12,704 nucleotides of DNA from Oscillospiraceae bacterium (GTDB lineage: Bacteria > Bacillota > Clostridia > Oscillospirales > Oscillospiraceae). Position 1 is the stretch's first letter, and every line of letters begins with the position of its first letter. Position numbers and translations under genes: made by a program. The stretch is taken from positions 1-12,704 of the forward strand of contig JAFSFK010000114.1 in assembly GCA_017435245.1 (NCBI GenBank). The letters run 5' to 3'. This document shows, piece after piece, positions 1-12,704 of this stretch. The notes under the pieces are model-generated. The model saw nothing but the letters and a program-made list of their open reading frames with translations. It ran no database searches and had not been told where the DNA came from.

Positions 1-194
1 ATACGCACGGTCTCCACTCAGATCACACCCGAGCCCGGCTCGTGGACCTTCCGGGGCGGATGGGCGCCTAATTAGGCAGCCAGAGCAACAGTATTGTTGT
101 CAGTTAATTTTAAAAAGTTACCCGTTTTATCGTGGTCAGGCGCCACGGCTCGCTTATCCGGCCTCACTACCCCCGTCGAAACCAGTACGGCCCC
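1..194 (-). ncRNA. ssrA: tmRNA (5' part, cut by the window edge)
   Basis: tmRNA rescues ribosomes stalled on broken mRNAs: it enters the A site like tRNA-Ala and then serves as template for a degradation tag. On the minus strand the RNA begins at 194 with GGGGCCGUACUGGUUUCGACGGGGGU written in pieces: GGGGCC forms the 5' acceptor strand, and GGUUUCGACGGGG is the near-universal tmRNA signature. About 95 bases further on lies the tag frame ending in VALAA-stop (101-72), followed by UUAGGC and a GC-rich part suited to pseudoknot helices. The 3' tRNA-like half lies beyond position 1, so the acceptor pairing cannot be checked. Its neighbours smpB and ppiB lie upstream on the same strand, and SmpB is the obligate protein partner. 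The exact 5' end assumes RNase P cleavage before GGGGCC. Confidence 0.95.
72..101 (-). other. tmRNA tag-peptide frame, probably DNNTVALAA
   Basis: The minus-strand frame reads GAC AAC AAT ACT GTT GCT CTG GCT GCC TAA. It encodes a tag ending in the hydrophobic VALAA recognised by ClpXP-type proteases, with the first Ala supplied by the charged tmRNA. The resume codon is inferred to be GAC at 101-99, because UUAACU just before it resembles the determinant that precedes resume codons in other tmRNAs, and some clostridial tags also start with Asp. The same frame stays open further upstream, so an earlier resume codon cannot be excluded. The VALAA ending is certain; the first residue is not. Confidence 0.75.
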
Positions 195-819: not shown

Positions 820-1281
820 TTAGTACCTCTCTTTCATAGCACGGTCGATCTGACGCTTGGCGTCCCGATCAGCCGCAGTTTGTCTTTTATCATAGAGTTT
901 TTTGCCCTTGCACAGACCTACCTTGATCTTTACCCGGCTGCCCTTAAAATAGACAGTCAGAGGGATCAGAGAGTATCCGTCCTGCTTGACTTTTCCGTAC
1001 AGCCGCATAATCTCCCGTTTGTGCATCAGCAGTCGACGGGGGCGGCGAGGGTCTGGATTGAATCGGTTGCCGTGGTCGTAAGGTGAGATGTGCATCTGGT
1101 TCAGAAGCATCTGTCCGTCTTTAATACCGCACCAGGCGTCCTTTAGGTTTAAGGTGCCCTGCCGAATTGACTTGACTTCCGTACCTTGCAGTTCAATACC
1201 AGCTTCGTATTCTTCTTCGATATAATATTCGTGCCGTGCCTCCCGGTTGGTGGCCATGACTTTTATGCTTTCCTTTTCCAG
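820..1281 (-). CDS. smpB: SsrA-binding protein SmpB
   Basis: SmpB binds the tRNA-like part of tmRNA and places it in stalled ribosomes; its C-terminal tail senses the empty mRNA channel. The OB-fold hallmarks are clear: ATNREARHEYYIEE, then YEAGIELQGTEVKSIRQG, NLKDAW, the DPRRPRRLLMHKREI segment, the LIPLTVYF strand and the GKKLYDKR stretch, ending in a basic tail. The start is unusual. A perfect GGAGGTGA (1294-1287) points to CTG at 1281, 8 bases after GGAGG, giving 153 residues beginning MEKESIKVMATNREARH, which matches the family N-terminus. The in-frame TTG at 1296 lies at the start of the SD sequence and next to the predicted transcription start. The first ATG (1257) is about 32 bases past the SD and would remove eight residues. 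ppiB follows after 2 bases, then ssrA. Identity is certain; the start codon is inferred. Confidence 0.95.
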   Translation of the reverse strand: MEKESIKVMATNREARHEYYIEEEYEAGIELQGTEVKSIRQGTLNLKDAWCGIKDGQMLLNQMHISPYDHGNRFNPDPRRPRRLLMHKREIMRLYGKVKQDGYSLIPLTVYFKGSRVKIKVGLCKGKKLYDKRQTAADRDAKRQIDRAMKERY

Positions 1282-1304
1282 ATCTCTCACCTCCAAGCTT
1301 ATTC

Positions 1305-4567: not shown

Positions 4568-4598
4568 AACCGGGGCGATTTGCCCCGGTTAGCTTTTT
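4568..4598 (+). terminator. Intrinsic terminator after the Nudix gene
   Basis: A perfect 9-bp stem, AACCGGGGC (4568-4576) with GCCCCGGTT (4582-4590), closes a 5-base loop and is followed by AGCTTTTTG with a run of five T. It separates the dinB/Nudix genes from the OLE RNA transcription unit. Confidence 0.92.
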
Positions 4599-4628: not shown

Positions 4629-4657
4629 TTGTATATTCAGTAATTCTATGATATTAT
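4629..4657 (+). promoter_or_regulatory. Promoter of the OLE RNA operon
   Basis: TTGTAT (4629-4634), a 17-base spacer and TATTAT (4652-4657) preceded by TGA (an extended -10) give a predicted start near 4664, exactly where the structured RNA begins. The surrounding 60 bases are strongly AT-rich, in contrast to the GC-rich RNA that follows. No other promoter is evident before dxs, so this one may drive the whole cluster to recN. Confidence 0.65.
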
Positions 4658-4663
4658 ACATCT

Positions 4664-5276
4664 CGACGGTGCAGTATCCTAGTCGGAATGGCCATTTTCC
4701 AGGAAGGGCCTAAAAATCCTTTGAAGGGCACATCGATGAAGTCCCTGGTGTCTGCTTTTTACGCCCAGTTTAGGGTGGATGCTGGGGGTTAAGGTTTCCG
4801 GGCGCGCTCCAATGGCATGGGGCATACGACCCGGTTTCCGTGGAGACTTGAACCTTGTGCGACGACGGGGAGAATCCCGGGAGGGATCCGATCGCGTACG
4901 AATCAAGTAAGAACCTGCAATGCAGTGCGCAGAATCGTGTTGCTGTGTGCAGCGTAGCCTGCCTTGAGTGAGTATGTGGGGAAAGGGGAACAGGCGGCTG
5001 TCTGCTATGGCCATAGCAGATGCCGATATTGCTCCTGGAAACCATACTTGCAAAAGAGGCTAAGACTATGGTTCATTCTGTCGTGGAAAACACCTAGGCT
5101 GTCGTAACTGGGCAGACAGGGGATTACAGCACGGACTAAGTGGCAATCGGGTATTCATTTTGGCAACACTTGAACTGACGGATCAAATGGAAACGGCCTG
5201 TGCGGCAACGGCAGGTTCTGTCAGGGGAAAACCAACCCGACCTAAGCCGTAAGATTTATCCTGTCTGCCGCCGTCA
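4664..5276 (+). ncRNA. ole: OLE RNA (ornate, large, extremophilic RNA)
   Basis: OLE RNAs are highly structured noncoding RNAs of about 600 nt that bind the membrane protein OapA and, in Halalkalibacterium halodurans, support tolerance to cold, ethanol and Mg2+ stress. Here a gene-free stretch of about 613 nt lies between a dedicated promoter and the oapA gene, which itself precedes dxs: the hallmark OLE position among isoprenoid genes. No credible protein frame covers it. Base composition is GC-rich with many short complementary runs: a 20-base perfect palindrome at 5001-5020 flanked by CGGC/GCCG (4995-4998, 5022-5025), GGGA-GAA-TCCC near 4869, and long-range GACGG (4665-4669) with CCGTC (5271-5275), adjacent to CGGCAG (5209-5214) with CTGCCG (5265-5270). 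Identification rests on size, structure signs and neighbours; a covariance-model search was not possible, and the ends are approximate. Confidence 0.88.
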
Positions 5277-5307
5277 TTTTATTATTTATGAAAAGGGGAT
5301 AATTCCC

Positions 5308-5892
5308 GTGTCTAAGCAAGACCCTTCCTCAGCAAAAAAAGAAAGAAACAAGACTATACGCTGGGTTGTGACGATTTTCTTTATAACGATCCTGATTTCC
5401 GGTACAATATCCTTTTTGTCGGATATCATTATGGAGTCCAGCACTATGGCGGTGGCGTTTTTGATCCTGCTGTTTATTGTGCTGCTGGGCATCGTGTTTG
5501 ACATCATCGGTATGGCTGTTGCAACTGCGGATGAAAAACCTTTTCACTCTATGGCTGCAAGGAAGGTACCGGGGGCACTGGAGTCCATTCGCTTGCTGCG
5601 CAATGCGGAGCGGGTAAGTTCTATTTGCAACGACGTTGTAGGTGATATCTGCGGCGTTGTTTCCGGTTCTGCTTCAGCAACCATTGCAGTGCAGATCCTG
5701 CAGAAACTCGATTTCTCCTGGCCTCAGATGGTGTCGCTTCTAATGTCTGCGCTGGTGGCGGGCTTGACAGTTGGCGGTAAGGCAATCGGTAAGACCTTTG
5801 CCATCAATTCCTGCACAAAAATCGTGTATTCTGTGGGAAAGATCATTTACTCTTTCCATAATATTCCCACTGTTTTTCAGAAAAAAAGATAG
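5308..5892 (+). CDS. oapA: OLE RNA-associated membrane protein OapA
   Basis: A 194-residue integral membrane protein that I recognise as OapA, the partner that brings OLE RNA to the cell membrane. A basic, polar N-terminus (SKQDPSSAKKERNK) precedes helix 1 (about 19-41) and helix 2 (about 47-71). Helix 2 runs into the family hallmark FDIIGMAVATADEKPFHSMAA (64-84, an acidic and polar stretch after the membrane segment). NDVVGDICGVVSG (108-120) and SLLMSALVAGLTVGGKAIG (143-161) form the second hydrophobic half, followed by a basic C-terminus. The start is GTG at 5308, with AAGGGG 9 bases upstream, about 32 bases after the OLE RNA end; the frame is open further upstream, but that part is RNA gene. 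OapA-like proteins are sometimes labelled as CorB-like Mg2+ transporters; a link to Mg2+ is suggested by OLE genetics, while transport itself is unproven. Confidence 0.9.
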   Translation: MSKQDPSSAKKERNKTIRWVVTIFFITILISGTISFLSDIIMESSTMAVAFLILLFIVLLGIVFDIIGMAVATADEKPFHSMAARKVPGALESIRLLRNAERVSSICNDVVGDICGVVSGSASATIAVQILQKLDFSWPQMVSLLMSALVAGLTVGGKAIGKTFAINSCTKIVYSVGKIIYSFHNIPTVFQKKR

Positions 5893-5904
5893 GTTGTGTT
5901 ACCT

Positions 5905-7785
5905 GTGTCTATATTAGAAACGATCCATAACAATAAGGATCTGGTTGCGTTAAATGCAAAGCAAAGAAAGGATCTTTGCGCTGAACTGCGGGATTGTTTG
6001 ATCCGCAATGTCAGTCGGACCGGCGGACACGTGGCCTCGAATTTGGGTGTCGTGGAGCTGACCGTGGCAATTGAAACGGTTTATAATACCCAAAAAGACC
6101 GCCTGGTTTTTGATGTGGGGCATCAGTCTTATATTCATAAGATGCTCACCGGTCGCCAGGCGGATTTTGCCGGTCTGCGCCAGTTTGGCGGTATTGCCGG
6201 CTTTCCCAAGCCCTCAGAAAGTGATGCGGATGCGTTTGTGGCAGGTCATGCATCCAGTTCCGTATCCATAGCCCTTGGAATGGCCAGGGCCAGAACCCTA
6301 ACAGGGCAGGACTACAATGTTATTGCGCTAATGGGTGATGGCGCTGCAACCGGCGGTATGGCCTACGAGGGGCTGAATGATGCTGCTGTCAGTGGGGAAC
6401 CCATTGTTGTGATCCTTAATGATAATGCCCTCTCTATCGATAAAAATGTGGGCGGAATGGCCTTCCATTTACGGAAATTGCGCTCGAAAGAGCGCTATCT
6501 TGGGATGAAGGAACACTATCGGGAATTTATGCTGAAGGTCCCCGGAGGACGTGGACTATATCGTTTTACTCGTCGGGCCAAGGACCGCCTGCGTCGGATG
6601 CTGATCCCCAGCAACATTTTTGAAAATATGGGGTTTACCTATCTGGGACCTGTGGACGGTCACGATACGGAAAATCTCATTGCTCTTTTACGAATCGCCA
6701 AGGAAATGAGAAGACCGGTGATTCTCCATGTTATGACCCAAAAGGGAAGAGGATATGCCCCCTCTGAGGAACATCCCAAGCTCTTCCACGGTATTGGTAA
6801 GTTTGACCCTGTAACCGGTGAACCGGAAAAAAAGGGCGGATATACTTTTTCGGATGCTTTTGGTGAAGAGATGGTCCGCTTAGCGGGTGCGGATGAGCGT
6901 GTTTGCGCCATTACCGCAGCAATGCCCGGCGGCACCGGCTTGTTGGAATTTAAGAGCAAATACCCCAAACGATTGTTTGATGTTGGTATCGCAGAGGAAC
7001 ACGCTATGTCTATGGCCGGCGGCCTTGCCAAACAGGGGATGGTGCCTGTGATTGCCCTGTATTCTACGTTCCTCCAAAGAGCTTACGATATGATCCTGCA
7101 GGATGTATGTATGCTGGGGCTTCATGTTGTTCTTGCGGTAGACCGTGCAGGTTTGGTGGGAGAGGACGGAGAAACGCACCACGGTGTGAATGATGTGGGT
7201 TTCTTACGCCATGCTCCTGGTCTGACCATATTGTGTCCTGCCAGCACGGCAGAGCTCAAAGATATGCTTGCCTGGTCTGTTGAGGAGCAGGATGGGCCTG
7301 TGGCTATCCGATACCCCAGAGGCGGCGATCGGAGTTATACACAGTCTGCCTGGGTGAATGATCCCGCTGTTAGAGGATATGGCGCACTAGCCTGCCACAG
7401 ACACGGTACGGACGTAACGATCATTACCTATGGAACACTTGTTGAAAACGCAATGAATGCAGCTGAGCTGCTGTCTGAGCGGGGGATCAGTGCGGCAGTT
7501 TTGCGCCTTATGAGTGTAGCACCGCTGCCCATTGAGCAGATTCTTGAGCGAATGTCCGATAATCCCCATATTCTCGTATTGGAAGAAGTCAGCGCCAACT
7601 GCGGTATCGGTCACAGTCTTGCCTGGGAACTGAAAAAGAGAAAAGACAATATCCGGGTCGACTGCATAGATCTGGGCAGCCGATATGTGACACACGGCAG
7701 TGTTGAGCAATTATATAAGCACTACGGGCTGGATGCCCGATCTGTTGCAGATTATATTCTGGAGGTGCATCAAAGTGAAAATTAA
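5905..7785 (+). CDS. dxs: 1-deoxy-D-xylulose-5-phosphate synthase
   Basis: DXS condenses pyruvate with glyceraldehyde 3-phosphate, using thiamine diphosphate and Mg2+, to start the MEP pathway for isoprenoid precursors. The 626-residue length is normal. Visible hallmarks (GTG-5905 numbering) are GGHVASNLG (40-48, active-site His42), DVGHQSYIHKMLTGR (70-84), the ThDP/Mg2+ motif GDGAATGG from 144 with NDNALSID following, GPVDGHD near 248, the catalytic Glu364 in VGIAEEHAMSMAGG, and GEDGETHHG near 419-427. GTG at 5905 gives MSILETIHNNKDL, as expected for the family. Another GTG at 5896 is possible, and neither has a strong ribosome binding site, so translation may depend on coupling to oapA, which ends 12 bases upstream. 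The stop overlaps tlyA by 11 bases. Confidence 0.97.
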   Translation: MSILETIHNNKDLVALNAKQRKDLCAELRDCLIRNVSRTGGHVASNLGVVELTVAIETVYNTQKDRLVFDVGHQSYIHKMLTGRQADFAGLRQFGGIAGFPKPSESDADAFVAGHASSSVSIALGMARARTLTGQDYNVIALMGDGAATGGMAYEGLNDAAVSGEPIVVILNDNALSIDKNVGGMAFHLRKLRSKERYLGMKEHYREFMLKVPGGRGLYRFTRRAKDRLRRMLIPSNIFENMGFTYLGPVDGHDTENLIALLRIAKEMRRPVILHVMTQKGRGYAPSEEHPKLFHGIGKFDPVTGEPEKKGGYTFSDAFGEEMVRLAGADERVCAITAAMPGGTGLLEFKSKYPKRLFDVGIAEEHAMSMAGGLAKQGMVPVIALYSTFLQRAYDMILQDVCMLGLHVVLAVDRAGLVGEDGETHHGVNDVGFLRHAPGLTILCPASTAELKDMLAWSVEEQDGPVAIRYPRGGDRSYTQSAWVNDPAVRGYGALACHRHGTDVTIITYGTLVENAMNAAELLSERGISAAVLRLMSVAPLPIEQILERMSDNPHILVLEEVSANCGIGHSLAWELKKRKDNIRVDCIDLGSRYVTHGSVEQLYKHYGLDARSVADYILEVHQSEN

Positions 7786-8575
7786 AAAAAGACTGGATGT
7801 GCTTCTGGTTGAGCAGGGCTATGCCGATAGCCGTACCAAGGCGCAGGCTATTATTATGAGCGGTATGGTGTATGTGGACGGCCAAAAGGCTGACAAGCCC
7901 GGTATGTCATTCGATGAAACACTGCCCTTGGAGGTGCGTGGCGCAGTTTGTCCCTACGTCAGCAGAGGCGGATTGAAACTGGAGAAGGCACTGCGTGATT
8001 TTGGTGTGGATCCCACCGGATATGTATGCAGCGATTCCGGCGCATCTACCGGCGGTTTTACCGATTGCCTGCTGCAGCAGGGTGCAAGTAAGGTGTTCGC
8101 CATTGACGTTGGCTATGGTCAGCTGGATTGGAAGATCCGTTCTGATCCCCGTGTGGTGGTAATGGAGCGCACCAATGTTCGTTATGTGACTCCGGAACAG
8201 CTTGGTGAGCCTCTTGATTTGTCCGTGATCGACGTGAGTTTCATCTCATTAAAGATCGTTCTGCCTGTAATCAAGACATTCTTAAAGCCAACCGGACAGG
8301 TTCTGTGTCTGATCAAGCCGCAGTTTGAGGCAGGCAAGGAAAAAGTAGGAAAAAAGGGAGTTGTCCGGGATCCCGCTGTTCATAAGGAAGTGCTGGATAT
8401 GTTTGTGGCACTGGCTGATGAACAGGGATTTAATATCTTGGGACTGACATTTTCTCCTGTGAAGGGGCCTGAGGGAAATATTGAATTTTTAGGCCATTTG
8501 AGCTTGGATAAACCAGGTATTCGTCCGGATACTGCGCAGGTCGTTGCGCAGGCACACGAAACATTGAAAGGGTGA
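7775..8575 (+). CDS. tlyA: TlyA-type rRNA 2'-O-methyltransferase
   Basis: TlyA proteins methylate ribose 2'-hydroxyls of 16S and/or 23S rRNA at cytidines using S-adenosylmethionine; in mycobacteria this sensitises ribosomes to capreomycin. The 266-residue protein has an N-terminal S4 RNA-binding domain (KKRLDVLLVEQGYADSRTKA onward, about 4-62), the SRGGLKLE linker (63-70), and an FtsJ/RrmJ-like domain with SAM motif DSGASTGGFTD (87-97). Catalytic-type residues are Lys68, Asp154 (IDVSFISL), Lys181 (LIKPQFE) and Glu237 (NIEFL). The start is GTG at 7775, preceded by GGAGG at 9 bases, giving an 11-base overlap with dxs. The dxs-tlyA-nadK-argR-recN order is a conserved Bacillota arrangement. Which rRNA nucleotide is modified cannot be told from the sequence. 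Confidence 0.94.
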   Translation: MKIKKRLDVLLVEQGYADSRTKAQAIIMSGMVYVDGQKADKPGMSFDETLPLEVRGAVCPYVSRGGLKLEKALRDFGVDPTGYVCSDSGASTGGFTDCLLQQGASKVFAIDVGYGQLDWKIRSDPRVVVMERTNVRYVTPEQLGEPLDLSVIDVSFISLKIVLPVIKTFLKPTGQVLCLIKPQFEAGKEKVGKKGVVRDPAVHKEVLDMFVALADEQGFNILGLTFSPVKGPEGNIEFLGHLSLDKPGIRPDTAQVVAQAHETLKG

Positions 8576-8579
8576 GGGA

Positions 8580-9443
8580 ATGAAAAAGATAATATTGACG
8601 CCCAATCCCTACCGGGACAAAAATTTCCATACGGTTCGCTCCGCAATGAAGATCCTGCGTGAGTGCGGAATGGAAGTTCGGCTGTGTTTACCCTTTGAGA
8701 TCGATAAGTCCTACGACCTGCCTAAGGACCTGCGCTTCTCCCGTTTAGACCGTGAGATCGGAACAGCGGATATGCTTGTCTGCTTTGGTGGTGACGGTAC
8801 CATTCTGCATATGGCAAAAACCGCTACACGCAACAATATCCCCATCCTCGGTGTCAACATCGGTACAATGGGCTTTATGGCGGAGCTGGAAAGCACAGAG
8901 CTGGATCAGTTGAAGCGCTTGGCCACGGGGGAGTACAGTATTGACGAGCGTATGATGCTGGATGTTACAGTTCACCGTGACCGTGACATTATTTTCCACG
9001 ATATTTGTCTGAATGACGTGGTGATCACAAAAGGGGCTGTTGCCCGGATCGTCCATATGGCGGTGAACTGTGACGGGGTCCAGGCATTAGAGTGTGGCGG
9101 TGACGGTATGATCATCGCTACGCCGACCGGTTCTACGGCATACAGCCTGTCTGCTGGCGGTCCGATCGTTGAACCGGATGCCCACAGTATTTTGATCACA
9201 CCCATTTGCTCCCACGATGTTGCCAGCCGATGCATCGTTGCGTCTGAAAACCGTACTGTAACGGTGATCCTGACCCGTAATAACCGCCGCTGTGCATACC
9301 TTTCTGCCGATGGCGGAAAGACACTGCGGATGAATATGGGGGATGTGGCAACTGTTAAGAAGTCTAATCTGACCACAAAGCTGGTACGGTTGAAGGACCG
9401 GAGCTTTTACGACGTGGTCAATATGAAATTTAGAATTAATTGA
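8580..9443 (+). CDS. nadK: NAD kinase
   Basis: NadK phosphorylates NAD to NADP in the cytoplasm, typically with ATP or polyphosphate in Gram-positives. The 287-residue protein has the catalytic GGDGT motif (70-74, Asp72), NIGTMGFMAE (93-102), LNDVVIT (144-150, NAD-contacting Asn145-Asp146, usually NE), and the glycine-rich GGDGMIIATPTGSTAYSLSAGGP (173-195), also diagnostic. ATG at 8580 follows the tlyA stop by 4 bases. The ribosome binding site AAAGG lies within the last codons of tlyA, so translation is probably coupled. NADPH supplied by this enzyme is used by the reductive MEP pathway steps downstream of Dxs, a loose functional link within the cluster. Confidence 0.96.
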   Translation: MKKIILTPNPYRDKNFHTVRSAMKILRECGMEVRLCLPFEIDKSYDLPKDLRFSRLDREIGTADMLVCFGGDGTILHMAKTATRNNIPILGVNIGTMGFMAELESTELDQLKRLATGEYSIDERMMLDVTVHRDRDIIFHDICLNDVVITKGAVARIVHMAVNCDGVQALECGGDGMIIATPTGSTAYSLSAGGPIVEPDAHSILITPICSHDVASRCIVASENRTVTVILTRNNRRCAYLSADGGKTLRMNMGDVATVKKSNLTTKLVRLKDRSFYDVVNMKFRIN

Positions 9444-9454
9444 GGTGTACTGCG

Positions 9455-9913
9455 GTGAAAAGTCAAAGACAAGCCAAGATTATGGAAATCATCTCCAACC
9501 AAAACGTTGAGACCCAGGAACAGCTGCAGGCACTATTGCTGAAGGAAGGCTTCCGTTGCACCCAGGCGACTATCTCCCGTGATATCAAGGATATGCGGAT
9601 CGTAAAAGAACTGACAAGTCTTGGAACGTACCGCTATACTACCAGCGGCAGTGAATTGAGTAGTGGTTTTTCCACCCGTCTGAACACGATCTTCCGTGAG
9701 TGCGTGATCGGGTATGACTATACCAATAACCTGATCGTGCTTCGCACCCTTCCGGGTCTGGCCTCTGCTGCCGGTTCTGCGGTGGATGCTATGAATATGA
9801 GCGCTGTGGTCGGTACCCTTGCTGGTGACGACACGGTTCTTGTTATTATGCGGGACAACAATGCTGCCGCAGCCTTCTGCGGTGAGATCAAGAGCCTTAT
9901 TAACCGTGGCTAG
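9455..9913 (+). CDS. argR: Arginine repressor ArgR/AhrC
   Basis: ArgR is an arginine-responsive hexameric transcription factor that represses arginine biosynthesis and activates catabolism. The 152-residue protein has an N-terminal winged helix-turn-helix (about 1-65), beginning KSQRQAKIMEIISNQ with the recognition-helix signature TQATISRDIKDM (36-47; Ser41-Arg42). The C-terminal oligomerisation and arginine-binding domain contains GTLAGDDTVLVIMRD (120-134; Asp125-Asp126 bind arginine). GTG at 9455 is chosen because GAGG, overlapping the nadK stop codon, lies 9 bases upstream and the protein then starts as usual for the family. argR immediately upstream of recN is a standard Bacillota pairing. 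I saw no obvious ARG box in the 11-base gap before it. Confidence 0.95.
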   Translation: MKSQRQAKIMEIISNQNVETQEQLQALLLKEGFRCTQATISRDIKDMRIVKELTSLGTYRYTTSGSELSSGFSTRLNTIFRECVIGYDYTNNLIVLRTLPGLASAAGSAVDAMNMSAVVGTLAGDDTVLVIMRDNNAAAAFCGEIKSLINRG

Positions 9914-9925
9914 GAGTGATTCTTT

Positions 9926-11575
9926 GTGCTGACCCTTCTGCATATTGAGAATATTGCGGTCATTGAGTGCGCTGACATATCCTTTGATGCCGGTTTTAAT
10001 GTGCTCACTGGTGAAACAGGTGCTGGTAAATCCATTGTGATCGATGCAATTTCTGCCATCCTCGGTGAGCGTGCCTATCGGGATATGATCCGTACAGGTA
10101 CCCAGAAAGCGTCTGTTCGAGCGGTGTTTACCGATGTTCCCAAGCTGGACTGGTTTGAACAAAATGGTGTTGAATACGACCCGGAAACTGTTATCCAGAG
10201 AGAAGTGTATCTTGACGGAAAGAACGTCTGCCGTGTCAACGGAACACTGGTTACGGTGAGCATACTGCGAAAGCTTGGCATCCAGCTGATCAATATTCAC
10301 GGTCAGCACGACAGCGCATCACTGTTTGATGAGAATAATCATTTGACCTATCTTGATTCCTTTGGTGACAGCGAGGCTCTTCTCACCGTATATGCAGAGA
10401 AATTTGCCGCTGTGGCTGAGCTCCGCCGTCAGATCCAACGGATGACTATGGACGAGGGAGAAAAGCTGCGCCGGATGGAGACACTGCGCTACCAGATCGA
10501 AGAGATCGAAAAGGCGCAACTGGAAGCCGGGGAGGACGAAGCGCTGGAAGAGCGCCGAAAAATCTTACAGAATGCTGAAAAACTTGCCGACGGTATTAAT
10601 GCGGCATCGGAATGTCTTTACGGCGGCGATGAAACCGACGGAGCGGCATCCTTGCTGGCTGAGGCCGAGCGGGAGCTTGCCCGTCTTTCACGGTATACGG
10701 ATGCCTTTGAATCCCTCCACGAGAAGGTGGCGGACCTGATGTATCAGGTTCAGGATGCCGCAGATGAAGTTCGAAACGCCCGGGATGATTTGTCCTATTC
10801 TGATAGGGAACTGGATGAGATCGAGGGTCGTCTGGACGTGATCCACCGGCTGCGTCGAAAATACGGTGCAACCTGTACAGATATTTTAGAGTATCTGGAA
10901 CGGGCAAAAGCGGAATTGGATGAGATTGAATTTGCCGACGATCATCTGGAAAGGCTGAAACGCAAGTGTGACAAGGCGGAAAAGGAAGCGTGGAATGCGG
11001 CCATCGAACTGCGTAAAAACCGCCAGAAGGCTGCTGTAGCCCTGTCGGAGCGGATTCTCAGCGAACTTGCACAACTGGATATGCCCAGAGTGCAGTTTTC
11101 CTGCGAATTTACGGAATTGGAACTGTCTGCCAACGGTGCCGATGCGGTGGCTTTCTATATGTCTGCCAATGCCGGCGAGGCCTTAAAGCCCTTGAGCAAA
11201 GTTGCTTCCGGCGGTGAGCTTGCCCGAATCATGCTAGCCATGAAGAATGTCCTTGCGGAGCAGGACCAGGTAAACACCTTGATCTTTGATGAGGTAGACA
11301 CCGGCGTGTCCGGCAGAGCGGCGCAGAAGGTAGCTGAAAAGCTCAGAAGTGTAGCTAAGGCTAAACAGGTGCTTTGTGTGACCCATCTGCCGCAGCTTGC
11401 CGCCTTGGCTAATACCCATCTGCTGATCGCCAAGGAAGAGAGGGGCGGCCGTACATATACCACCGTTACACCTTTGGATCTTGAAGGCAGAAAACGGGAG
11501 CTTGCCCGCATCATTGGCGGCACCAATATTACGGAAACTACCCTCAAGAGTGCGGAAGAAATGCTAAAGGCTTGA
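9926..11575 (+). CDS. recN: DNA repair protein RecN
   Basis: RecN is an SMC-like ATPase recruited to DNA double-strand breaks. The 549-residue protein has the expected length and layout. An N-terminal ATPase half carries Walker A GETGAGKS (29-36) and INIHGQHD (122-129). A helical, coiled-coil-rich middle covers about 155-385, with long charged runs such as ELRRQIQRMT and DEALEERRKI. The C-terminal ATPase half has the signature SGGELARIMLAMK (428-440), Walker B LIFDEVDTG (452-460) and the H-loop VTHLPQ (485-490). The start is GTG at 9926 with GGAG, overlapping the argR stop codon, 9 bases upstream. recN often belongs to the SOS regulon, but no LexA box was seen in the gap; here it appears to be the last gene of the OLE-dxs cluster. 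Its stop codon overlaps the -35 of the tyrS promoter. Confidence 0.97.
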   Translation: MLTLLHIENIAVIECADISFDAGFNVLTGETGAGKSIVIDAISAILGERAYRDMIRTGTQKASVRAVFTDVPKLDWFEQNGVEYDPETVIQREVYLDGKNVCRVNGTLVTVSILRKLGIQLINIHGQHDSASLFDENNHLTYLDSFGDSEALLTVYAEKFAAVAELRRQIQRMTMDEGEKLRRMETLRYQIEEIEKAQLEAGEDEALEERRKILQNAEKLADGINAASECLYGGDETDGAASLLAEAERELARLSRYTDAFESLHEKVADLMYQVQDAADEVRNARDDLSYSDRELDEIEGRLDVIHRLRRKYGATCTDILEYLERAKAELDEIEFADDHLERLKRKCDKAEKEAWNAAIELRKNRQKAAVALSERILSELAQLDMPRVQFSCEFTELELSANGADAVAFYMSANAGEALKPLSKVASGGELARIMLAMKNVLAEQDQVNTLIFDEVDTGVSGRAAQKVAEKLRSVAKAKQVLCVTHLPQLAALANTHLLIAKEERGGRTYTTVTPLDLEGRKRELARIIGGTNITETTLKSAEEMLKA

Positions 11576-11606: not shown

Positions 11607-11867
11607 AATATCAACGCATTGATGGGATGAAGTACGCAATCTTTCTTCTCAAGAGAACTGCCGGTTGGTGCAAGGCAGCAGATGAAGATGCTGAAATACC
11701 TCCCGGAGCGGCTTTTCTGAAATCACAGTAGGAGAAGACGGGCTCGCCCGATACAGCGAAAGCGTTTTTATAACGCTGTGAGGTTCTTACTGCGAGGTAA
11801 GGATAAACCAGAGGTGGTACCACGTAGTTTACGTCCTCTGTCCGTAAGGACAGGGGACTTATTTTTT
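11607..11867 (+). promoter_or_regulatory. Tyrosine-specific T-box riboswitch leader
   Basis: This leader senses uncharged tRNA-Tyr: the tRNA pairs with the specifier codon and its free 3' end stabilises an antiterminator, letting RNA polymerase reach tyrS. Stem I features are visible: the loop-E strand AGTA (11631-11634), CAAGAGA (about 11650), an apical GGTTGGTG (11663-11670), and GAAA followed by the specifier TAC (11697-11699) on the 3' side. TAC is a tyrosine codon, agreeing with the gene downstream. The T-box AGAGGTGGTACCACG (11810-11824) contains TGGT at 11815-11818; its variable base T matches discriminator A of tRNA-Tyr. AGAGG of the T-box can pair with CCTCT (11835-11839) to form the antiterminator, competing with the terminator stem. 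The leader accounts for the 315-base gap between recN and tyrS. Confidence 0.95.
11833..11867 (+). terminator. Conditional terminator of the T-box leader
   Basis: An 11-bp stem (11833-11843 with 11848-11858, one G-T wobble) closes a GTAA loop and is followed by TTATTTTTTA. Its 5' arm overlaps the 3' strand of the antiterminator, so the two structures exclude each other, as required for T-box control. Confidence 0.93.
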
Positions 11868-11890
11868 ATAATATTTTGGAGGAGATTCAA

Positions 11891-12704
11891 ATGAAATTAT
11901 ATGACGAACTGGTTGCCAGAGGTTTGATCGCCCAGGTTACCAATGAAGATGAGATCCGTGAGATGATCGACAACGGCAAGGCCACTTTCTACATTGGCTT
12001 TGACCCTACCGCCGATTCTCTGCATGTAGGCCACTTTATGGCGCTGTGTCTGATGAAGCGCCTGCAGATGGCTGGCAATAAGCCTATCGCCCTGATCGGT
12101 GGTGGTACTGCTATGATTGGCGACCCCTCCGGCAGAACCGATATGCGTTCTATGATGACCAAGGAGACCATCGACCACAACTGTGCCTGCTTCAAAAAAC
12201 AGATGGAACGCTTCATCGAGTTCGGCGAGGGCAAAGCACAGATGGTGAATAATGCCGACTGGCTGCTGGACCTCAACTATGTGGATGTGCTGCGTGAAGT
12301 GGGTGCTTGCTTCTCTGTTAACAACATGCTTCGTGCTGAGTGCTACAAGCAGAGAATGGAGAAGGGCCTTTCCTTCCTGGAATTCAACTATATGATTATG
12401 CAGTCCTATGACTTCTACTACCTGTATCAGAACTACGGCTGCAATATGCAGTTTGGTGGCAATGATCAGTGGAGCAATATGCTGGGCGGTACGGAACTGA
12501 TCCGCAGAAAGCTCCAGAAGGATGCCCATGCGATGACCATTACTCTGCTTCTCAATTCTGAGGGCAAGAAGATGGGTAAGACCGCAAAGGGTGCCGTGTG
12601 GCTGGATCCCAACAAGACTACTCCCTTTGAGTTCTACCAGTATTGGCGTAATGTTGAGGATGCGGATGTCCTTAAGTGTATCCGTATGCTGACCTTCCTG
12701 CCTC
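11891..12704 (+). CDS. tyrS: Tyrosyl-tRNA synthetase (3' end cut by window edge)
   Basis: TyrRS charges tRNA-Tyr with tyrosine using ATP. The visible 271 residues run open to the window edge; a full protein is usually about 400-430 residues, so the anticodon-binding and S4-like C-terminus is missing. Class I motifs are present: the HIGH-type HVGH (45-48) after [18 protein letters not shown] (77-83), [15 protein letters not shown] (165-179, tyrosine-binding region), FGGNDQWSN (188-196), and the KMSKS-type loop KMGKT (227-231). ATG at 11891 is preceded by GGAGGA at 7 bases. The tyrosine T-box directly upstream independently supports the amino-acid specificity. Codon choice here is more uniform than in the genes to the left, as expected for a highly expressed housekeeping gene. 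Confidence 0.97.

Follow-up and report, generated by a model that had tools for sequence, protein, structure and literature searches.

To our knowledge, no biochemical role is established for OLE, one of the largest such structured RNAs in bacteria. In Halalkalibacterium halodurans, it is described as a membrane ribonucleoprotein (RNP) with OapA, OapB, and OapC, with stress and Mg phenotypes (PMC9723947, PMC12265935), and published structures locate the contacts of the OLE dimer in L4, P5.1/P6.1, and L9 (PMC12286853, PMC12265935). A survey of GTDB genomes reports 2,822 OLE matches in Bacillota (PMC11332333). Here we describe a full-length OLE RNA with oapA directly downstream on a 12,704-nt contig of an Oscillospiraceae bacterium (JAFSFK010000114.1), the whole of which was analyzed and is referred to as the window. 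The locus is a confirmed additional member of the known OLE-OapA class, and we regard its identity as ole-oapA as virtually certain. What is new is small, namely a natural ole-oapA deletion among relatives, the conservation of a single promoter for the operon, and the replacement of GGCC by GCGC in the dimer loop L9 of two relatives.

When the whole window was searched with Rfam cmscan, the OLE model RF01071 was matched on the plus strand over model positions 1 to 616 of 616, with 441.6 bits and an E value of 4.4e-127 (the gathering score is 50 bits); the only other matches above gathering score are a T-box leader and a truncated tmRNA (see below). A full-length, plus-strand covariance match had been named beforehand as the check on the sequence-only reading of this stretch as an OLE RNA-OapA locus, and the match at 4650-5290, together with several criteria for OapA, bears that interpretation out. 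A search for OLE in 14 control genomes gave no positives (0/14). The description of the stretch as GC-rich barely holds (51.8% GC versus 50.1% across the window), and open reading frames (ORFs) of at least 80 aa occur within it, for example one of 124 aa on the minus strand at 4679-5053.

Comparison of sequences indicates that the OLE secondary structure is maintained by compensatory changes among relatives. The alignment comprised 69 OLE sequences: that of the window, 29 belonging to unnamed relatives, and 39 taken from named contigs. Named copies were excluded if incomplete or more than 97% identical to a retained copy, a filter not used among the 29, of which L022, L023, and L028 are nearly identical. 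When the Rfam pairs are projected onto the window, 154 of 159 fall on bases and 142 of these are standard, and across the alignment 91.2% of pair cells are standard. Both-sided changes occur at 97 of the 154 pairs and in 912 cells, compared with shuffle means of 57.5 pairs and 231 cells; the covariation score is 0.292, and none of 500 shuffles attains any of five pairing and covariation measures, in a control that ignores the kinship of the sequences. Sliding partners by one to three columns reduces paired cells to 39-45%, with the proviso that a model-derived structure tends to outscore slid versions anyway. Pairing is weak in helices 18 (64%), 13 (a single pair, 74%), and 3 (77%), and at seven individual pairs that are broken in 52 to 66 of the 69 sequences.

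The dimer-loop sequences of OLE are retained in the window and its relatives (Table 1); dimerization itself is predicted. The two exceptions to the P5.1 GCCCA loop (L004 and L016) are each shorter by one base. At the center of L9, 67 sequences have GGCC and two (L019 and L095) have GCGC, such that all 69 are self-complementary. Swaps of GGCC to GAUC or AGCU are described in PMC12286853, and GCGC is a palindrome beyond the three named there for OLE. The GGCC-to-GCGC swap agrees with an RNA dimer.

The window OLE resembles the RF01071 examples (H. halodurans and Clostridium acetobutylicum) in its full-length match, its dimer loops, the oapA directly downstream, and the presence of both hairpins taken as P7 and P8. 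It differs in its Oscillospiraceae host, and contig titles of relatives indicate animal gut. Among named contigs, the best matches are to metagenome-assembled genomes labeled Oscillospiraceae, Clostridia, or Bacillota, together with a small number of Faecousia and a single Pseudoflavonifractor, and their isolate names indicate sheep, goat, deer, buffalo, yak, cow, and rabbit gut; these nearest relatives suggest that the host is an uncultured animal-gut bacterium. The OLE variants 1 (TANB77) and 2 (RF39) likewise come from uncultured gut Bacillota, but are described as having short or missing P7/P8, whereas the window fits the full-length model (PMC11332333). The locus contributes a well-sampled gut genus to the study of OLE. 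A literature search found no paper pairing 'OLE RNA' with 'Oscillospir', which is not absence from print because the GTDB survey (PMC11332333) probably covered the clade.

The ORF at 5308-5892, in tandem downstream of OLE, has the 194 residues and the FDIIGMAV...ADEKPFH hallmark claimed for it. It is assigned as OapA because it is linked to OLE and co-occurs with it, carries the DxxxD motif, and has a predicted CNNM-like fold. D109 and D113 are unchanged in 31 of 31 aligned OapA proteins, and the predicted fold is CNNM/CorB-like with MtCorB ranking top among structure matches; PMC11332333 likewise reports that MtCorB (7M1U) is a top match of the H. halodurans protein. The window protein shares with known OapA the DxxxD motif, a predicted helical membrane character, and the CNNM-like fold with MtCorB on top, and differs in having no family match at default thresholds; its likeness to the H. 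halodurans protein is by published description. The Mg exporters MpfA, CorB, and CorC (CNNM domain, PF01595) share the predicted transmembrane fold, and their distribution and that of OapA are complementary. Unlike these exporters, the window OapA has a DxxxD motif, which CNNM domains are described as lacking (PMC11332333), and no CBS or CorC Pfam domain was found downstream of the CNNM-type fold in its 194 aa. At least 8,000 candidates match in an OapA homologue search, and the only source name among the 120 matches listed is 'hypothetical protein'.

A search by OapA similarity gave 313 loci, and in all of the best 80, which were kept, OLE sequence lies upstream of oapA and dxs downstream, with only a short OLE piece in L102. 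We also surveyed 60 genomes (the window's own, 36 of the genus, and 23 of the order) and found OLE in 42 and OapA in 45, with no OLE genome lacking OapA (0/42). In the three further OapA genomes, OapA lies at contig starts; two (G004 and G025) keep the 3' part of OLE, and in G005 the contig begins within oapA. Contigs also begin inside OLE at 11 of the 80 named loci (L031, L055, L057, L061, L066, L068, L070, L071, L073, L094, and L104), perhaps because the conserved RNA disrupts metagenome assembly; as a consequence, OapA would seem OLE-free in surveys. A partial OLE in G017 was considered as a domain loss and rejected, as it lies at a contig end. We note that G041, a genome at the order level, has two different OapA copies (L236, G041:C41; L224, G041:C94), one accompanied by OLE and the other next to dxs close to the end of a contig, reflecting either duplication or contamination.

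The claim that OLE has its own promoter receives a mixed answer. A generic promoter scan of the window called two sites versus 2.1 expected, and the OLE promoter is not among them; comparison of relatives, in contrast, finds a conserved extended -10 pattern (TTGnnn-N14-TG-N-TAnnnT) in 62 of 69 OLE sequences, 20-22 nt upstream of where the model begins. The same pattern occurs at 7 of 10,275 sampled control positions, a figure that may include true sites. All seven OLE sequences without it (L001, L002, L003, L004, L013, L017, and L027) belong to other families in the order. With the -35 element at 4629-4634 and the -10 element at 4652-4657, the RNA is expected to start near 4664, 7 nt past the -10 box, in agreement with the start at 4664 read from sequence alone. 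The hairpin preceding this promoter is weak on its own as a terminator, with three sites in the window versus 1.6 expected. That dxs directly follows oapA is confirmed (from 5896; TIGR00204, 667 bits), and PMC12265935 connects two members of the ole cluster, oapA and argR, with the complex.

Relatives of the other two protein partners are probably encoded in the genus, as judged from sequence matches and gene neighborhoods. A KOW-type protein is encoded upstream of infA in 12 of the 13 same-genus loci read, a call made by motif and by eye for all but L202, and a profile of ten such proteins (five of the genus and five of the order, the latter including one from the OLE-less G052) matches OapB (7k9b) at 8.2e-16, with the next match at 0.013. 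For OapC, a gene for an L7Ae protein adjoins rpsL in 23 of 28 same-genus genomes having the rpsL start, including 18 of 23 with OapA and 5 of 5 without it, and the one L7Ae protein searched matches YbxF (4lck) at 1.3e-14.

Not all of the relatives retain the locus. Among the 60 genomes, dxs was looked for in 18; five genomes of the same genus lack OapA, and dxs is assembled in only two of them, G001 (99% complete) and G035 (98% complete). We did not score OLE absence in G008, G028, and G034 as loss because no dxs was above cut-off in those assemblies. In G001, the NUDIX gene, an extended -10 promoter, and dxs are found in order with OLE and oapA absent between them, and in G035, a promoter of the same form precedes dxs behind a different upstream gene, again with OLE and oapA absent. 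No OLE remnants were found at these two dxs loci (blastn, E 1), and the loci of G044 and G058 gave two chance-like short matches only (E 0.59). In a dxs tree of 51 of the 88 rows collected, with every second named OLE row included, G001 falls within a nine-row group containing the window (support 99/96) and G035 at the base of the genus rows; the nesting of G001 in the window's group is why the missing pair reads as loss. As a separate observation, the dxs leader of G001 after the promoter (L222, ∼1345-1480) is ∼130 nt long without OLE similarity, and the L222 stretch including the promoter is predicted to fold at -34 kcal/mol, a value without a shuffle control.

The published anticorrelation with MpfA (PMC11332333) is repeated in the distribution of CNNM and OapA across the 60 genomes. 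CNNM matches above 100 bits occur in 12 of 15 genomes without OapA and in 7 of 45 with it (Fisher p 1e-5, ignoring kinship and completeness); many CNNM matches of lower score are in fact to oapA. G001 and G035 both have a strong CNNM match, and the CNNM protein of G001 is a separate one. It is possible, if somewhat doubtful, that in this genus ole-oapA serves as a dispensable cassette for metal homeostasis, inserted between the promoter of a housekeeping operon and dxs. The pair would then be lost as a whole while the promoter stays, and species losing it would rely on a full CNNM exporter instead. If so, G001 would represent a deletion that arose naturally in a species sister to that of the window. 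Close relatives having and lacking ole-oapA at the same site allow a natural comparison that bears on whether OLE-OapA and CNNM Mg exporters overlap as proposed.

We propose that transcription begins near 4664 from a single extended -10 promoter and would continue through OLE into oapA-dxs-tlyA-nadK-argR-recN, with OLE either cut from the operon transcript or ending within it. By extension from the H. halodurans work, two OLE RNAs would associate by way of L4, the P5.1/P6.1 loops, and L9, and, aided by OapB and OapC, the paired RNAs would bind to a dimer of OapA in the membrane. The resulting particle may tune Mg/Mn balance under stress, in a role overlapping that of CNNM-type Mg exporters. 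As a whole (RNA, OapA, read-through operon, and membrane RNP), this is very probably the best explanation of the locus; on the metal-homeostasis mechanism itself, most likely metal-ion balance under stress by analogy, our judgment is evenly divided.

Several observations weigh against this explanation. The OLE RNA and OapA of this locus are known from sequence, and their expression is predicted. Foldseek with the predicted OapA structure gave no match at E ≤0.001, and the protein has no Pfam or NCBIfam match at default thresholds and no PDB sequence match at E 1; PF01595 is matched by 16 of the 31 aligned OapA proteins, the window's not among them. In the window's own genome (63% complete), rpsL and infA were not found and there is no L7Ae match; L7Ae is absent beside rpsL in five of the 28 genus genomes (G006, G023, G024, G026, and G036), and a single OapB candidate matches the PDB entry 'OLE-associated protein B' at only E 0.025. 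Within the genus only, the CNNM trend is not significant (2/2 versus 7/32, p 0.06). Finally, OLE and oapA seem to be unlinked in G037 (L235, G037:C53; L226, G037:C30), in which OLE lies ∼100 nt before a different long ORF, Mfd-like by eye, and oapA and dxs are on another contig with no match to the G037 OLE in the ∼200 nt upstream.

The invariant order of the 80 kept loci, with OLE on the same strand upstream of oapA and dxs, the conserved promoter at its 5' end, and its U-rich 3' end would also be expected of a long 5' leader regulating oapA and dxs in cis, in the manner of a riboswitch or attenuator, rather than a free RNP in the genus. We consider this improbable, given that the L4, P5.1, P6.1, and L9 sequences are kept and a palindrome-to-palindrome change in L9 is needless for a cis leader, that OLE precedes another ORF in G037 with oapA elsewhere, and that published OLE is bound as an RNP by OapA, OapB, and OapC (PMC12265935). 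The absence of OLE and oapA at the assembled dxs loci of G001 and G035 shows that loss is possible, as for a decaying relic retained only by hitchhiking with dxs; this is very improbable for the window locus, where 142 of 154 pairs are standard, compensatory change among relatives is strong, and the oapA frame is open. Decayed coding sequence, which had been named as the refuting alternative and could draw on the 124-aa minus-strand ORF, or another structured RNA is scarcely credible, as the match is nearly 400 bits over the gathering score, pairing collapses when partners are slid, and covariation at 97 of 154 pairs argues against coding sequence.

Table 1. Coordinates of the ole-oapA locus, its signals, and the genes downstream (window numbering)
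Feature	Position	Strand	Basis
Terminator-like hairpin after upstream NUDIX gene: 10 pairs, 7 GC, then T run	4568..4590	+	Hairpin scan
-35 element TTGTAT, putative OLE/operon promoter	4629..4634	+	Conserved placement in relatives
-10 element TATTAT with TG extension, 17-nt spacer	4652..4657	+	Conserved placement in relatives
OLE RNA, full length (Rfam RF01071); transcript expected from ∼4664	4650..5290	+	Covariance model match, covariation
A-rich loop L4, intermolecular A-A pairing in published dimer (PMC12286853)	4712..4716	+	CUAAAAA 69/69
P5.1 loop GCCCA, kissing partner of P6.1 loop (PMC12265935)	4763..4767	+	GCCCA 67/69
P6.1 loop region CAAUGGCAUG	4810..4819	+	GGCAU 69/69
L9 symmetric kissing loop UGGCCA	5008..5013	+	Central four bases self-complementary 69/69
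oapA, 194-aa predicted helical membrane protein, GTG start, DVVGD at residues 109-113	5308..5892	+	ORF, motif, predicted fold
dxs, 1-deoxy-D-xylulose-5-phosphate synthase	5896..7785	+	TIGR00204
tlyA-family rRNA methyltransferase, probable start ∼7775 (ORF listed from 7700)	7775..8575	+	TIGR00478
NAD kinase (nadK)	8580..9443	+	PF20143/PF01513
argR, arginine repressor	9440..9913	+	TIGR01529
recN	9926..11575	+	TIGR00634

Two further RNAs lie toward the ends of the window. The T-box leader (11610-11841, 119.7 bits) precedes an ORF at 11876-12704 that resembles tyrosyl-tRNA synthetase by eye, and the tmRNA (1-194, minus strand), cut by the window start, lies near smpB (820-1296, minus strand).
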